From assembly GCA_020543525.1 (NCBI GenBank), contig JAHYIO010000023.1, forward strand, positions 372,001 through 436,000: a stretch of 64,000 nt of DNA, written 5' to 3'. Numbering within the stretch: position 1 is the first letter of the stretch; each line of letters begins with the position of its first letter. Origin of the DNA: Coriolopsis trogii. Lineage: Eukaryota; Basidiomycota; Agaricomycetes; Polyporales; Polyporaceae. Position numbers and translations under genes: made by a program. Of this stretch, positions 2,502 through 11,014 are shown piece after piece. The notes beneath the pieces are model-generated. The model was not told the origin of the DNA. It made no database searches and saw nothing but the letters and a program-made list of their open reading frames with translations.

Positions 2502-5500
2502 ATGCCAGCCGAGGACCCCTCCGGGTACACACTCATGGTCGCTGGCCGCCGCACAGGCAAGACCTCCTTTCTCCGTCTCCTCCTCGACACCAGCAACGTC
2601 TCCTCCTCAGTCTCCCGCGACCAACTAGCCTCCGTCGCAAAGTTCGTCCACGGCAGCAGCGGACACACCGCGCATGTCCGGTCCGTCTCAATCGACATTG
2701 ACCTGGCGCCTGACGAGGTCGACGACGAGTTTCCCCTCACCCTCACCCTCATCGACACCCCTTCGCTCGACTTTGACGACGACCCCGCGTCCCAAAGAAC
2801 GCTCCAGGAGATCCTCAGACACGTCGAGACGCGCTTGGGAGAGAGCCTGGACGATGTGAGTGCTCCGTTCCTTTTGGCGCCCATATACCTCTGACCTTGC
2901 CGCGCGCCGCGTCTCAGGAACGTAAAGCACAGACTGGCAGCCACCTGGTACATCTGTACGTCGTTTCTCTGTCTCTCTGTCTCTCGGGCCCCTTCGCACA
3001 CTCTTCTTGTCTCGCGTTTCCTTCTACTGCTGCGCAAGTGCGGCGTCGTCACTACCGGCTTCTATCCGCCTAGACCCCCACCCCGACGCACGCGGAGGAC
3101 AAACACCCTCTGATCGTGTTGCCGGTGGGCGGCACGTGTCACCGCGTATGGCGAGAGTCCCCACAACGCGACGAGTGCACATCACTCGACATCCGTCGTA
3201 CCATGCCCAATCTCCGGCCCCTCCAGCTCTCGCCTGCGCGTTGATCTAGGGTCCCTCGGAGAGAAGCCTGACATTGCGGATGTCGTCCCGGAGCGCCTAG
3301 ACCACGCGGTGGGGGAGCGGTACTCCCATGCATCCTGTGAATCTTGTCGCATGGCCCCGGCTAAGTTTGCGATTGGTCCAGGCCTGTGGATAGGCGGACT
3401 CGGTTTGTGCCTGCAGCTGTTCGCGTTCTGTTGCGATATTCCCGCTGTTGATGGCCGTGGAGCCACGGGAGTCACGATGCTCGCTCCTCACTGAGTTCTC
3501 TCGAGTGGGGCGCATATTGCTCCGGACGCCTGCACTTACTTGCCTCCTCATGGGAATGGGGTTGAGAGCAATCGCAACACTTCGGCGTTGTCGGTGTGCT
3601 CTGTCAGTCTGGCGTGATACTCCTTTGCGATTCTATCTCGCTAAGGGAGACGGTGGCTAACCTACTGCCGTTTAGATGCATTTACTTCCTCGATCCCGAC
3701 TACATAGTACCACCATCCGTACAAGCACCACCAGTCCCTCTTGTACCTCGTGCACGTACGAACAGTCTTTCTACCCATGAGTCCGAACCTGTCATCCTAG
3801 AACCCCCCGTCACCAACAACCCCATTCTATGTCGGCCGATCCTCCCAGCTTCCGACATTTCTGCCATACGCCGACTCTCTGCGCGCGTCAATGTGTTGCC
3901 AGTAGTGGCTAGGGCAGATACTCTGACCACCGACCGTCTCACTGCCGTGAAGATGGCAATACGTCGAGATCTTGCTGAAGCCGGTATTGGTTTTGGCATA
4001 TTTGACCTCGACATCCCCTTGTATGCTCAGTTGGAGTCGAAGCTCGTCAAGTCCATGTCAGAAAACGGCTATGGGTACAACAAGCACCGCAACGGGTCCT
4101 CCACCTCTCCTCCATCCACGCCGATCACCCCGACGCTCTTGCGGCTGCCGTTTTCGCTGATCTCACCCGATATTTATTCGCACAGCGACGGTGTGACGAG
4201 GGGTCCGGTGAAACGCCACGACCTTGTGCAGCAGTACAGTCCTTCGAACCACATCACCCCCAAAAGCCAGACGACGCCCAAGATCGTCCCAGGCAAATTT
4301 GTGAGGAATTACCGCTGGGGTTCGCTCGACGTCATGGATGCGAGCCACTGCGAGTTCCTCCATCTGCGTGGTGCCATCTTCCACCATATGGAGGTATATA
4401 CATATCTTGGTTCTCTTCAAAGCGAACCGTTCGCTGACTTTGTCCGCTCATCCGCGCAGACCCTGCAGAAGTACACCCGCGAGTACCTGTTTGAGAAATT
4501 CAGGGCGGAAGTGCAGCCTTCGGCGCCTGTCAGCGTCCGCCCTCTGCAGTCGAGCGTGGTGAACAGACTCCCGCCCATGCGGGGATCGCGTCCAGTCCTC
4601 GCGATTGACACTGCGCCACTACATGCGAACGGGAACGGTCATCTGTCCGTCCCGCGGTCAGGACTCCACAACGGGGAGCTCAATGCCCAAGTCCTCTCTA
4701 TGGCCATGCAAGAGCTGTCGCCACGGACAGCGGCGTCGTCAAGTCAGTCGTCCCTCCCTTCTTCGCGACCCGGCAGCCGATGGCATTGTCGGTATTTGAG
4801 CGAGGCTTGTTGCGCACCGCGCAGGATTCCAGTCCACTGACCGCCGCCCTCTCCCCGCAGGGTCCCAGCGGCAACGGGCGAAAAAGATAACGGTGGCATG
4901 CAACTTCTGCAGATGTGAGTTTCCCCCCTGCATCGTCCTTGCAGCTCTCAAGACGCCGCGTTCTCACCCCCCTGTTTCGTGTGTGCAGCGCGGAAGCTCA
5001 AGTGCGACGGCGGAAGGCCGGCATGCGGGCAGTGCTTCAAACGTTCGAACCCCTGCGACTACACGGCGAGCAACAAGCGCCGGAATTCTGGCAAGCCGCG
5101 GAAACATCACGGCAGCGATAGCGAGGATGACAGCATCGAAGACGGGACGGCCGACCTGGAGCCCGCTTCGCATTCCCCCGACCTGTCGTCGTCCGCGCCG
5201 CACTCCCGGAGAAGCTCGAACGTGAGCATGCTTCTCACAGATCCGCTGCCGCCGTTGAGCGCAGCGGTCGAGCGACGCGAGGAACCCTCTGCCGCCGTCC
5301 TCCCGCCGATCACGTCCTCGAATGGGTATGGCAACGGCGGCGGCGGCGGGGGGCCGCATGGGTCGCGCAGGCCGTCGCTGAACACGGAACTGCCACCGAT
5401 TGCGACGCTGTCGGCGCCGCCGGGGCAGCAGGAGGACTCGCCGCCTTCGCTCTCGTCCTCGCTGTCGTCGTTCAAGCAGACGGACGGGACCGCGTCGCGG

Positions 5501-6008
5501 CGGCGGACGTCGTCCGCTGCGTCGGGGTCGACGTCGAGCCGGGGACGAGGTGGGAACGGATCAAAAATCGTGGCGTGCAACTTTTGTCGAGGTGAGTGCA
5601 GAGCGCGGGCTGATGACGGGATATTGACTGATGATCTGCATGCGCGGTCGCACAGCACGGAAGACGAGGTGCGACGGGGCGCACCCGACGTGCAGCAGCT
5701 GCTCGCGCCGGTCGCTGCGGTGCAACTACGTGAACGACCCGACGAAGGCGCGGTCGAAGAGCAGCGGGAGCAACACGACGCCGCCGGACGTGTCTGCGTC
5801 GACGTCGAGCCGGTCGTCGCCTGTCGCGCCGTCGACGGGGTCGGGATCGGTGTCGGTGACGCTGAGCACGCCGGGCATGGCGGACTCGGGGGTGCGGTCG
5901 CTGAGCGCGATGGACCCGGACGTGATGATGCAGCAGCAGCAGCCGGCGAAGAAGATGCGGTTGGGGCCGGAGCTGACCGCCCCGACGATCGCGGTGCTGA
6001 ACGTGTAG
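2502..6008 (+). CDS. septin-type GTPase domain fused to two Zn2Cys6 clusters
   Basis: Proposed exons 2502-2855, 2918-2955, 3676-4393, 4460-4742, 4861-4914, 4989-5591 and 5656-6008 give 800 residues. The N-terminal half is septin-like: P-loop AGRRTGKTS (about 14-22), G3-like DTPS (85-88), the septin G4 region RVNVLPVVARADTL (ARAD 209-212), the RNYRWG..DV and HCEF elements, and a closing LFEKFR helix. A Zn2Cys6 cluster follows, with C478, C481, C488, C495, C498 and C505 in exact C-x2-C-x6-C-x6-C-x2-C-x6-C spacing. A Ser/Gly-rich linker leads to a second cluster with the same spacing (C679-C706). The frame never closes between the GTPase and the zinc clusters, and no ATG in frame with the clusters lies after 4743. 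The donor joining them is either GTCAGT at 4743 or GTCGGT at 4788; both keep frame. An upstream in-frame ATG at 2373 is possible. A nuclear GTPase-regulator role is inference only. Confidence 0.72.
2956..3675 (+). other. 720-nt intron inside the septin domain
   Basis: The donor GTACGT at 2956 and acceptor TTTAG at 3671-3675 join VHL to CIYFLDP. The paralog at 6931-9360 has the same junction (IHL to CIYMIDP) with a 72-nt intron. The intron is therefore about ten times longer than its counterpart and than the other introns of this gene. It contains only short open frames with no recognised motif. It could hold an insertion remnant or an internal promoter; nothing seen proves either. Confidence 0.7.
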
Positions 6009-6930: not shown

Positions 6931-9360
6931 ATGTTCAGCTTCCGCCGCAAGCCTAGGAAGTCGGAGGATCCCAGCGGGCCGCCCTTCATCCGTACCTCTC
7001 CTTCCCTCCCCGAGCTCTCGTCCTCCGGCATCCCCTGGCCGAGCAACCTCGTCGACCTCTCCCAGCTCCCGAACGAGCAGTCGCCCTCGTCCCCCCCAAG
7101 GGGCGCCGCGAAGACGTCGTTCGTCAATGACTCCATCACCCCCGTCCCCTTCCACAAGCCGTGGTCGTCCCCGGGCAAGGCCAAGGACGCCGCCGCGGGC
7201 CCGCCCATCGCGTCCTTGTACTCGTCCTCGCACCCCCCGAGCGCGTTCGAGGGGCGCAAGTCGTCCCTCTCGAACCGCACCCGCGTGAGCCAGAAGCGCA
7301 ACAGGAACCCGACGACGTTCAACGTCATGGTGCGTCTCTCTCTCTTTTTCCCCAGTTGTCTGTGGCAGGATCTGTCGGTCGCTGTATGTGTGCCACTCGC
7401 TCACTTGCGCGTCGGTCGGTGGTGTGTGTTTGTAGGTTGCAGGCGCGCAAGGGACAGGCAAGACGTCGCTCCTCCGCCTCATCCTCGAGACCGCGGACAT
7501 CTCGCCGACGGCGACTGCAGACCAGAAGGCCGCGATGGAGCGCTTCCTGCGCGGGTCGACCAAGCGCACGGAGAGCATCCAGGCGGCGTGCGTCGAGATA
7601 TGCGAGAGCAAGTACGACAGGCTGCTCCTGTCCGTCATCGACACCCCCGGGCTCGACTTCCAGGAAGGCCGCGAGCTCAAGCTCGAGCGCCAGGTGTCGA
7701 CCATCGTCAAGTACCTCGATGCGCAGTTCGCCGATACGCTGAGTGAGGTGCGTGGGCATGTTGATCGGCGCGGAGCGCTGGTTGCTGTCGCGGTTTGGAC
7801 GTTTGAGACGTCAGAAGCTCACGGCCGGTGCAGGAATCCAAGGTCGTCCGTCAGAGCAAGGGAGACCAACACATTCATCTGTGAGTTGACGTGATACGTG
7901 CGCATGAGACCGGTGTCCATGGCCATACCTGCTCATTGCTGTTGTCTCGCAGGTGCATCTACATGATTGATCCCTCATCGATCATGTCCGAGTCTGCCCG
8001 CCGCACGATGTCGTCCCTGCCTACCAAGACACGCTCGGAGACGACCATCTCCTACAAGCCACCGGATCTCTCCTCCATGTCCGAGGACTCGGACTCGGAA
8101 GACGAAGATGACGGCGCTGGGAGCGGTCTCACCATGTCCCCAGCTGACATCCGCGTCATCCGTCGCCTCTCCGCCCGCTCGAATGTACTCCCTGTGGTCG
8201 CCCGCGCCGACTCGCTCACGGACTCGAGGCTGAACGCGATCAAGAAGGTTATCCGCCGCGACCTACGGGCCGCCAACCTTGATTTCGGCGTGTTCGGCCC
8301 TATACCGGACGACCCGAAGAGCCCGGCCGGCGTGCGTGCCAACGGCCACAGCCATAACAATAGCGTGAACAGCAGCGAGCACAGTGCCCCGCACGAGAAC
8401 GGCAACGGCAACGCGAACGGGGACGCGGCTGTAGCCGCTTCTCCCAAGGTAGAAGAGGCTCCAGCGGCGGCGGCAGCAGAAGGAGAGGACGTGGAGCGGA
8501 CCCCGCGCCCCGTCATCAAGCTGCGCCCGACGCGCCTCGCCCGCCGTCCGTCCCGGTCGCGCTCGCGGCTGGAGACGGTCGACGGGGCGGAGGACCCGAG
8601 CGCGGCGCTGGAGCTCGTGAACGACACGGAGAGCGTGGCGAGCGTGCGGTTCTCGGCGCACATCGTGGTGAAGACGGACCTGACGGCGAACCTGCCGTTC
8701 GCGATCATCACGCCCGAGCATACCCGGCGGAAACGCGCCAAGAGCCTGCCTGCGGTCGCCTCGCCCATCTCGGGCTCGGCGAGCGTGAACGGACACGGAC
8801 ACGGACAGGAAGGGGGAGGAGCGAGTAGCAGGAGAGAGTCGATGGTTGCGCCGTCCGAGGACGGGCACGCGAACTCGGTCGCGCAGTCGAGCGTGGTGAC
8901 GTCGCCGGTGTCGCCGTCGACGCCGTTGACGCCGTCGTCGATGCGGCATTATCCGTACCTGCAGGGCCCTCCGGCGGACCTGCGGGGCGTGTTCGTGCGC
9001 AAGTTCAGGTGGGGCACGGTGGACGTGCTGGACCCGCAGCATTGCGATTTTGCGGCGCTGAGGACGGCGGTGATGTCGACGCATATGAAGGTGCGTGTGT
9101 TTGGGTGGGGAGTGTCGTGCGTGATGAGCAGTGCGCTGACACGGGGTGGTGCTTGCAGCTGCTCAAAATCAGGACGAAGGAGGTGCTGTACGAGAAGTAC
9201 AGGACGGAGAAGCTGCTCGCGAGGCGCGCGACGCGCAACATCAGCGAAGACGAGACGAAACGGTTGTTGGAAGGTACGTCACGCTGTTTCGCTCCGGCCC
9301 TGAGGAGCATGAGAGAGGGATGTATCTCACCATCTGGTCTGTGCAGATCTGGGATTGTGA
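6931..9360 (+). CDS. septin-like GTPase, stand-alone paralog
   Basis: Exons 6931-7329, 7436-7747, 7834-7880, 7953-9090, 9159-9273 and 9347-9360 give 674 residues; the last exon is only 14 nt. After a Ser/Pro-rich N-terminus, a basic stretch (QKRNR) just before the G domain resembles the septin polybasic region. The P-loop is GAQGTGKTS (136-144), G3 is DTPG (202-205) and the septin G4 motif ARAD is at 336-339 within RSNVLPVVARADSLT. A long low-complexity insert follows, then VRKFRWGTVDV..HCDF and a THMK..YEKYR helix typical of the septin C-terminal G-domain edge. The C-terminal coiled coil of classical septins is absent. Intron positions and several motif strings match the preceding gene, so the two are tandem paralogs. 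It is larger than ordinary septins (usually 300-500 residues) because of the inserts. Filament assembly cannot be judged from sequence. Confidence 0.85.
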
Positions 9361-9784: not shown

Positions 9785-11014
9785 CTATGAACGTTTGCCG
9801 CTCGACGCGAGCGTGTCTATCTCCTCTTCCGACAGCCCGTCCAGACGGACGAGCAAGTAGTTCACCTGTGTCCGGCAGACCGTGAGCATGAGCATGACCC
9901 AGACAGACAGGCACGTACCTCGACCTCCTTGGTGAGCGGGATGATGTAGTCCTCGTAGAGCTCGACGACGCCGTCGACGTCGATCTTGAGCGTGGCCGCG
10001 TCGTTGAGGGGCTCGCCGTCGGGGGAGAAGTTGAGTGCGTAGAGGGAGGCCTTTTTGCGGAGCCGCTGGAGGAGCTTCTTCTCGACCTCGGGCTTGGTGA
10101 TGAGCGCCTCGAGCGCGGCGCGGTTCTTGGAGCGGATGTGGGGGATGAAGTCGGCGGGGTGGGCCCTGAACTTGCTCTCGGAGACGAACTTTCCTGTGGG
10201 CGTGTGCGCGCGTGAGCAGAGTGCGGGGAGCGGGTGCTGGAGGGCGAGAGGGCGAGGGACGCACCGTAGTGGACGCGCTTGGAGATGGCCTGGAGGACCT
10301 CGAGGTCGACGAAGGCGGCGGAGCCGTAGTTGCCGTCGTCCTCGAACTCGTCGTCGCCGGTGATGCCGCTCGCGCGCTTGAGGGCGGCGAGGGCGAGGGT
10401 CGTCTGGCGGGTGATGCGGGGCACGATCGCCTGGGTGTAGAAGGAGAGGATGGACCGGTTGACGTTGATCGTGTTCGGGTGGAGGATGGGCGGGTGCGGG
10501 AACGGCGGAAGGACGGGCGGGGGCAGCTCTTTGGGGTCTGTGAACGGGTATTCGTCTGGGCTGGTCGTCGGTCGTCGCGGTCGGGTGAGGGCGCGAGGGC
10601 GGGGGCGGGGGCGGGCGGGAGGTTCATATTCAGCTCGGGTCTGTTCCTGACCCCCGTCTGTTCTCCCGCCGATTGGCAGGGATGCGGGGCGACTCACCTG
10701 GTGTACCGTCGCGCCTTGGCTGTACGCGAGGACTGCTGTCAGCGTGTGGGATGCGCGGACGCGGGGGACGCACCGTGGAAGGACTCTGTCTCCTTCAAGA
10801 ACCACTCGAGCCAGCTGCCGTGGAAGCCAATGTCCTGGAGCTCCTTGATCTCCCCACGGCGATACGCTTTTGGGTTGTGCGCGAACTGCGCACGTTCGAT
10901 GAGCGAGAAGATGATCGTGTCCTCGAGACGGACGAGGATCGCGCGGATGCGGTCGAGCGAGAGCGGGTCGCCGCCGAGGATGAAGTTCTGCTCGGGGAGA
11001 GGGACGCTGGCCAT
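9785..11014 (-). CDS. ARO7: chorismate mutase
   Basis: Minus-strand exons 11014-10774, 10719-10698, 10560-10265, 10193-9919 and 9865-9785 give 304 residues, slightly longer than yeast Aro7 (256). The enzyme converts chorismate to prephenate, the first committed step to Phe and Tyr, in the cytosol. The N-terminal helix reads [26 protein letters not shown]24 and E31 align with yeast catalytic R16 and E23. Downstream elements are the SPDEYPF segment, [15 protein letters not shown] (matching the yeast SRRIHFGKF region) and [14 protein letters not shown] at the C-terminus, where the last active-site Glu lies. Exon 2 is a 22-nt microexon coding AKARRYT; only this choice restores the conserved link between FH and SPDEYPF. 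Yeast Aro7 is activated by Trp and inhibited by Tyr; I infer but cannot show the same here. It is divergent from THI4. Confidence 0.93.

Follow-up and report, generated by a model that had tools for sequence, protein, structure and literature searches.

The described systems closest to the locus reported here are the fungal septins (PF00735), the fungal Zn2Cys6 regulators (PF00172, Gal4 type), the KMT2A (MLL)-septin fusions of leukaemia, and the polycistronic transcripts of Agaricomycetes. The Fungal_trans middle domain is common but optional in Zn2Cys6 regulators. The KMT2A-septin fusions are acquired translocations in patients, and the septin forms the C-terminal part of the product. Septins are treated as MLL fusion partners in the accessible part of PMC5101219, and a title on the dimerisation of MLL fusion proteins stands in the reference list of PMC10751303. 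Septin motif definitions, including Sep2 as DxR[VI]Hxxx[YF]F[IL]xP, are given in the portion of PMC1931588 that was available. The polycistrons of Plicaturopsis have a mean ORF distance of 364 nt, and every frame contains stops between their coding units (available text of PMC4503453), and those of Ganoderma lingzhi have a mean distance of 434 bp, with about one third of gene pairs in frame (available text of PMC11590231).

We describe here a gene in which a septin-like domain is predicted to run in one frame into two Zn2Cys6 clusters. It lies in a window of 64,000 nucleotides, the whole stretch analysed (C20:372001-436000; positions below are those of the window), within a 38.8-Mb genome of 39 contigs, and the style of the genes points to a probable agaricomycete fungus. 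The predicted product is like fungal septins in its Pfam match above cut-off, WG motif, HCEF block and closing helix, but it departs from them in its altered G1, a G3 without glycine, the ARAD sequence, an incomplete Sep2, an insert between G4 and WG, and a C-terminal half that is predicted to bind DNA. It resembles the Zn2Cys6 regulators in having two exact clusters, the first of which aligns to GAL4, and is unlike them in carrying two clusters per chain and a septin-like N-terminus, and in giving no Fungal_trans match at E<=1 in the 800-aa frame. The nearest analogue is the KMT2A-septin fusions, in which a septin is likewise joined to a chromatin regulator, although here the gene is genomic and its septin part is N-terminal. 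With the polycistrons of Agaricomycetes the locus shares two adjoining same-strand coding units, but the pair is unlike those reported because the intervening distance is 60 nt and the septin frame has no stop within it. No septin/zinc-cluster fusion regulator was found among the listed titles and abstract beginnings of a literature collection that lies largely outside the subscription journals.

Gene model and domain order

Seven predicted exons between 2502 and 6008 on the + strand combine into a stop-free frame of 800 aa. The features are as follows, with the tandem paralogue downstream.

2502..2855, + strand: exon 1, with septin-like beta1, altered P-loop AGRRTGKT and G3 DTPS
2918..2955, + strand: exon 2, start of a Sep2-like block
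2956..3675, + strand: intron 2, 720 nt, unusually long
3676..4393, + strand: exon 3, with CIYFLDP, G4-like ARAD, an insert, WG and the HCEF block
4460..4516, + strand: exon 4, first part, the septin closing helix TLQKYTREYLFEKFRAEVQ
4517..4742, + strand: exon 4, second part, a linker open in the septin frame, with in-frame ATGs at 4577, 4700 and 4706
4743..4860, + strand: predicted joining intron, GTCAGT...CCCGCAG, with CTGAC at 4837 and the septin-frame stop 4838 inside
4861..4914, + strand: exon 5, first part of zinc cluster 1 (KKITVACNFCR)
4989..5591, + strand: exon 6, rest of cluster 1, a Ser/Pro-rich spacer and the start of cluster 2
5656..6008, + strand: exon 7, remainder of cluster 2 and the C-terminus, with the stop at 6006-6008
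6931..9360, + strand: septin B, the tandem paralogue, 674 aa in six predicted exons, whose P-loop is GAQGTGKT and whose G3 is DTPG

A Pfam search of the 800-aa frame places Septin first (1.1e-30, 107.4 bits against a cut-off of 26.2, in three stretches) and Zn_clus after it (2.6e-17, in two stretches), and a search of NCBIfam gave no matches. The septin-like domain occupies 2502-4516, and given the predicted splice the frame is free of stops through both domains. The initial annotation had described a septin frame that passes through a linker and a frame-keeping splice into two exact zinc clusters, and the 800-aa frame with this domain order bears out the description. Its further statements that no stop precedes the splice and that about 60 nt lie between the end of the GTPase and ATG 4577 are likewise borne out (first septin-frame stop at 4838, within the intron; 60 nt). 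The start codon, ATG 2502, has the context cacacacaATG, and a further in-frame ATG lies upstream at 2373.

Intron 2, which sits between the part with the altered P-loop and the remaining septin exons, is 720 nt long, far beyond the 50-282 nt of the 38 remaining introns in the genome's six septin genes, and its only genomic match is itself. That it contains an inner promoter is speculation.

The junction between the septin and zinc halves

No stop closes the septin half ahead of the zinc half: between 4400 and 4900 its frame contains a single stop, that at 4838. The frame of the zinc half has stops at 4560 and 4797 and no ATG from 4800 to cluster 1 (ORF 4800-5225), and the zinc half therefore needs an upstream exon. 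Splice sites and codons were scored with a donor/acceptor and codon model trained on the six septin genes, comprising 38 introns, with the joining intron left out, and 2868 codons, some of which come from the other exons of this same gene. The donor at 4743 (GTCAGT) is the top GT site of those scanned over 4390-4829 (6.0 bits) and keeps the septin frame across the join; the runners-up are 4645 (4.4 bits), 4483 (3.8), 4394 (3.6), 4792 (1.7) and 4788 (0.8), of which 4394 is the homology-supported donor of intron 3 itself. Because the septin half lacks its own stop, an exon further upstream is required for the zinc half and the best donor joins the two in frame, we favor one gene as the best reading of the DNA, and it is probable that one fused protein is made, whatever its function. 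We infer from the same features both the 4743-4860 splice and a single transcript across it. The septin frame also remains open over about 390 codons despite an identity of only 44% to septin B, which counts for one gene.

The 60 nt between the septin end and ATG 4577 carry less weight. A run of 20 codons is open at a frequency of 0.61 in the local non-coding DNA, so that a gap both open and in frame is expected by chance at about 0.20, and the open gap alone is thus weak evidence; the missing septin stop outweighs it and is the stronger point for one gene. The codon score over the gap (4517-4576) is +0.22 bits per codon in the septin frame versus -0.44 and -0.09 in the others, and falls to -0.69 past the donor at 4743. 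The score is crude, in that the conserved septin stretch 3676-3900 itself scores -0.27, yet this is the highest of the three frames, and it is weak evidence for a coding gap.

Several of these features count against one gene and bear on the foremost alternative, in which there are two overlapping same-strand genes. Septin A, as we call the septin half in comparisons with other septins, would then end at 4838 by retaining its last intron, the zinc regulator would arise from an inner promoter with ATG 4577, 4700 or 4706 as its start, and gene prediction would fuse the two. In addition to the chance of an open, in-frame gap and the crudeness of the codon score, neither splice site is strong: 6 of the 38 training donors score lower than 4743 when left out, a C at +3 as in this donor is found in one of the 38, and the acceptor at 4860 is the fifth among the AG sites scanned (6.0 bits versus 11.3 for 4459). 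The joining intron is long at 118 nt, exceeding 35 of the 38 training introns, and its only CTRAY-type branch site is the CTGAC at 4837. The base at -3 is C at ATG 4577, T at ATG 4700 and G at ATG 4706 (and A at ATGs 2502 and 6931); ATG 4706 could start a short zinc protein, and sharing of transcripts by neighbours is common in mushroom fungi according to the available text of PMC4503453 and PMC11590231. The in-frame third of the polycistronic pairs of G. lingzhi also counts against one gene. However, the pyrimidine at -3 speaks against the starts at 4577 and 4700, septin A would be left without its own stop and would owe its final residues to intron sequence, the promoter of the zinc gene would fall within septin coding sequence, and 1074 of the 1165 overlapping pairs of G. 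lingzhi run in opposite directions (available text of PMC11590231). We consider the two-gene arrangement to be unlikely on balance, if deserving of serious weight.

We also considered a start for the zinc half in frame 0, at ATG 4623 or 4683 with the donor at 4792, and rejected it; this frame is open, but the donor reaches only 1.7 bits, and the codon score over 4577-4741 is -0.21 versus +0.03 for the septin frame.

Codon composition does not mark the junction, at which a one-break GC3 scan found no break, and this is counted for one gene. The best single break is at 5658, inside the zinc half, with a log-likelihood ratio of 24.2 that is above all 300 of 300 permutations. GC3 also varies inside the septin half, where it dips to 0.45-0.6 around codons 90-240, and this is counted against one gene. 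We note that in the last exon (5656-6008) GC3 reaches 0.97, a bias far above that of the rest of the fused gene.

The septin-like half and its relatives

The six septin genes of the genome, namely septins A and B and four core septins, were spliced and aligned, with 252 columns common to all. Of these, septin B is the nearest to the septin half, with 44% identity over these columns versus 29-32% for the four core septins, and 40% over all 358 paired codons. The tree joins A and B with a support of 1.000, on branches of 0.72 (A) and 0.51 (B). Only 27 of 75 fourfold third bases agree between A and B at identical amino acids, and the duplication that gave rise to them is therefore probably old. 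Introns 1-3 of the septin half lie, by eye, at the positions of introns 2-4 of septin B. A and B are the fifth and sixth septins of this genome; the available portion of PMC1931588 gives a basidiomycete septin count of four or five.

The septin half is worn: a residue of the normal phosphate-binding loop is missing, and so is the glycine of G3. Its G1 sequence, AGRRTGKT, has one residue fewer than that of septin B; it does not match GxxxxGK[ST] and agrees with [AG]x4GK[ST] alone. Three of the four core septins have GxxxxGK[ST], and the fourth has GASGTGRT. At G3 it has DTPS rather than DxxG, whereas DTPG is present in all five other septins of the genome. The xKxD motif of G4 is replaced by ARAD, as it is in septin B, whereas the lysine is kept in all four core septins. 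Sep2 is complete in each of the four core septins and is represented in the septin half by the core VHLCIYFLDP only, and septin B also lacks the full motif. The Sep4 WG is present at residues 345-346, and is kept in septin B too, and the conserved blocks DISAIRRLSARVNVLPVVARADTLT and YRWGSLDV are retained. The Sep3 block, a marker of Group 5 (AspE), could not be recognised on visual inspection of the aligned septins, and A and B are therefore not assigned to this group. Septin B has long inserts between G4 and WG while keeping G1 and G3.

These comparisons modify the initial annotation, which had listed a P-loop among the septin motifs and had proposed either a GTP-controlled transcription factor or a recent gene fusion. 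ARAD, the WG motif, the HCEF block and the closing helix are all present, but the P-loop is not a normal one. One fused gene stands as the best reading, given the predicted splice, while GTP control lacks support, given the lost G1 residue, the lost G3 glycine and ARAD at G4. The word recent is likewise unsupported for the septin duplication, with its 44% identity over 252 columns and 27 of 75 fourfold third bases alike.

The wear of the septin half could also mean that the fusion exists only at the DNA level, with the septin exons a decaying passenger sequence and the working product a short zinc regulator that starts internally. The lost P-loop residue, DTPS, the incomplete Sep2 and the 720-nt intron would all be expected of such a relic, as would the longer branch of septin A (0.72 versus 0.51) and its lower GC3 (0.68 versus 0.87 for the first four exons of septin B). 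The best PDB matches point the same way, the septin half reaching 1.6e-15 where septin B reaches 1.5e-24 and one of the core septins 5.3e-131. A decaying sequence would not, however, be expected to retain about 390 septin codons without a stop, together with its intron positions (by eye) and conserved blocks such as those named above, and we find this explanation doubtful. We instead read the open frame and the kept introns as probable constraint on a fold that has lost its GTP-dependent switching, with decay as the rival reading. Switching by the septin half is unlikely because the P-loop is one residue short and G3 reads DTPS, and a role as a pairing or tethering module would be likelier. 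A GTP-switched transcription factor is very improbable even with the Septin match, the formal fit to [AG]x4GK[ST] and an ARAD common to septin B, since the septin half departs from both GxxxxGK[ST] and DxxG while septin B keeps them.

The zinc half, a proposed mechanism and the gene neighbourhood

The clusters of the zinc half, at residues 478-505 and 679-706, both have the canonical Zn2Cys6 spacing CX2CX6CX6CX2CX6C, in agreement with the two exact clusters first described. Cluster 1 aligns to GAL4 at 9e-06, and we infer that the zinc half binds DNA. The two are the only pair less than 5 kb apart among the Zn_clus stretches listed for the genome, which number at least 27. A comparison of the zinc half with the genome gave eight matches; three of these are self-matches, and the five others are weak, none better than 1.6e-5. 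Relatives were absent from six matched stretches of viral contigs and 30 of prokaryote contigs, collections that are not expected to hold fungi.

Returning to the one-gene reading, it would provide one protein of about 800 residues, the N-terminal half of which would be a septin-type domain no longer switched by GTP, and the C-terminal half a regulator carrying both Zn2Cys6 clusters on a single chain. That such a fused protein works, with a non-switching septin half, is a fairly even question that we would answer slightly in the negative. More tentative is the further step in which the septin-like half acts in pairing or tethering, as a fixed surface for itself, septin B or the four core septins. 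Such a surface may gather or hold the DNA-binding half, and gene control would then be tied to septin assemblies. In its most specific form, which we regard as unlikely, the protein would be a natural regulator in which the septin-derived pseudo-GTPase half pairs with the cell's septins, and assembly and disassembly at the septum or hyphal cortex would directly gate the double zinc-cluster protein. If the fused protein is made, a cytoskeletal fold and a DNA-binding regulator would be joined in one gene. One could then test directly whether the shape of the cell or the state of the septum is signalled to transcription by septin assemblies, and the leukaemia-associated KMT2A-septin fusions would have a naturally occurring counterpart.

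The order of genes is zinc, septin, zinc, septin, which suggests a possible duplication of a block. The first of these is an upstream single-cluster Zn2Cys6 gene (KKTLIACHFCR / ARKLRCDG; 1-620 and L029:7795-8622) that ends at 620, but its match to the zinc half is limited to the cluster, with 49% identity over 41 aa. Beyond septin B, at 9862-10623 on the - strand, there is an open frame with a weak match to chorismate mutase type II at 0.00037, which is below the cut-off. We also note that the upstream zinc gene has an intron which, judged by eye, interrupts its cluster at the position found in the two clusters of the fused gene.
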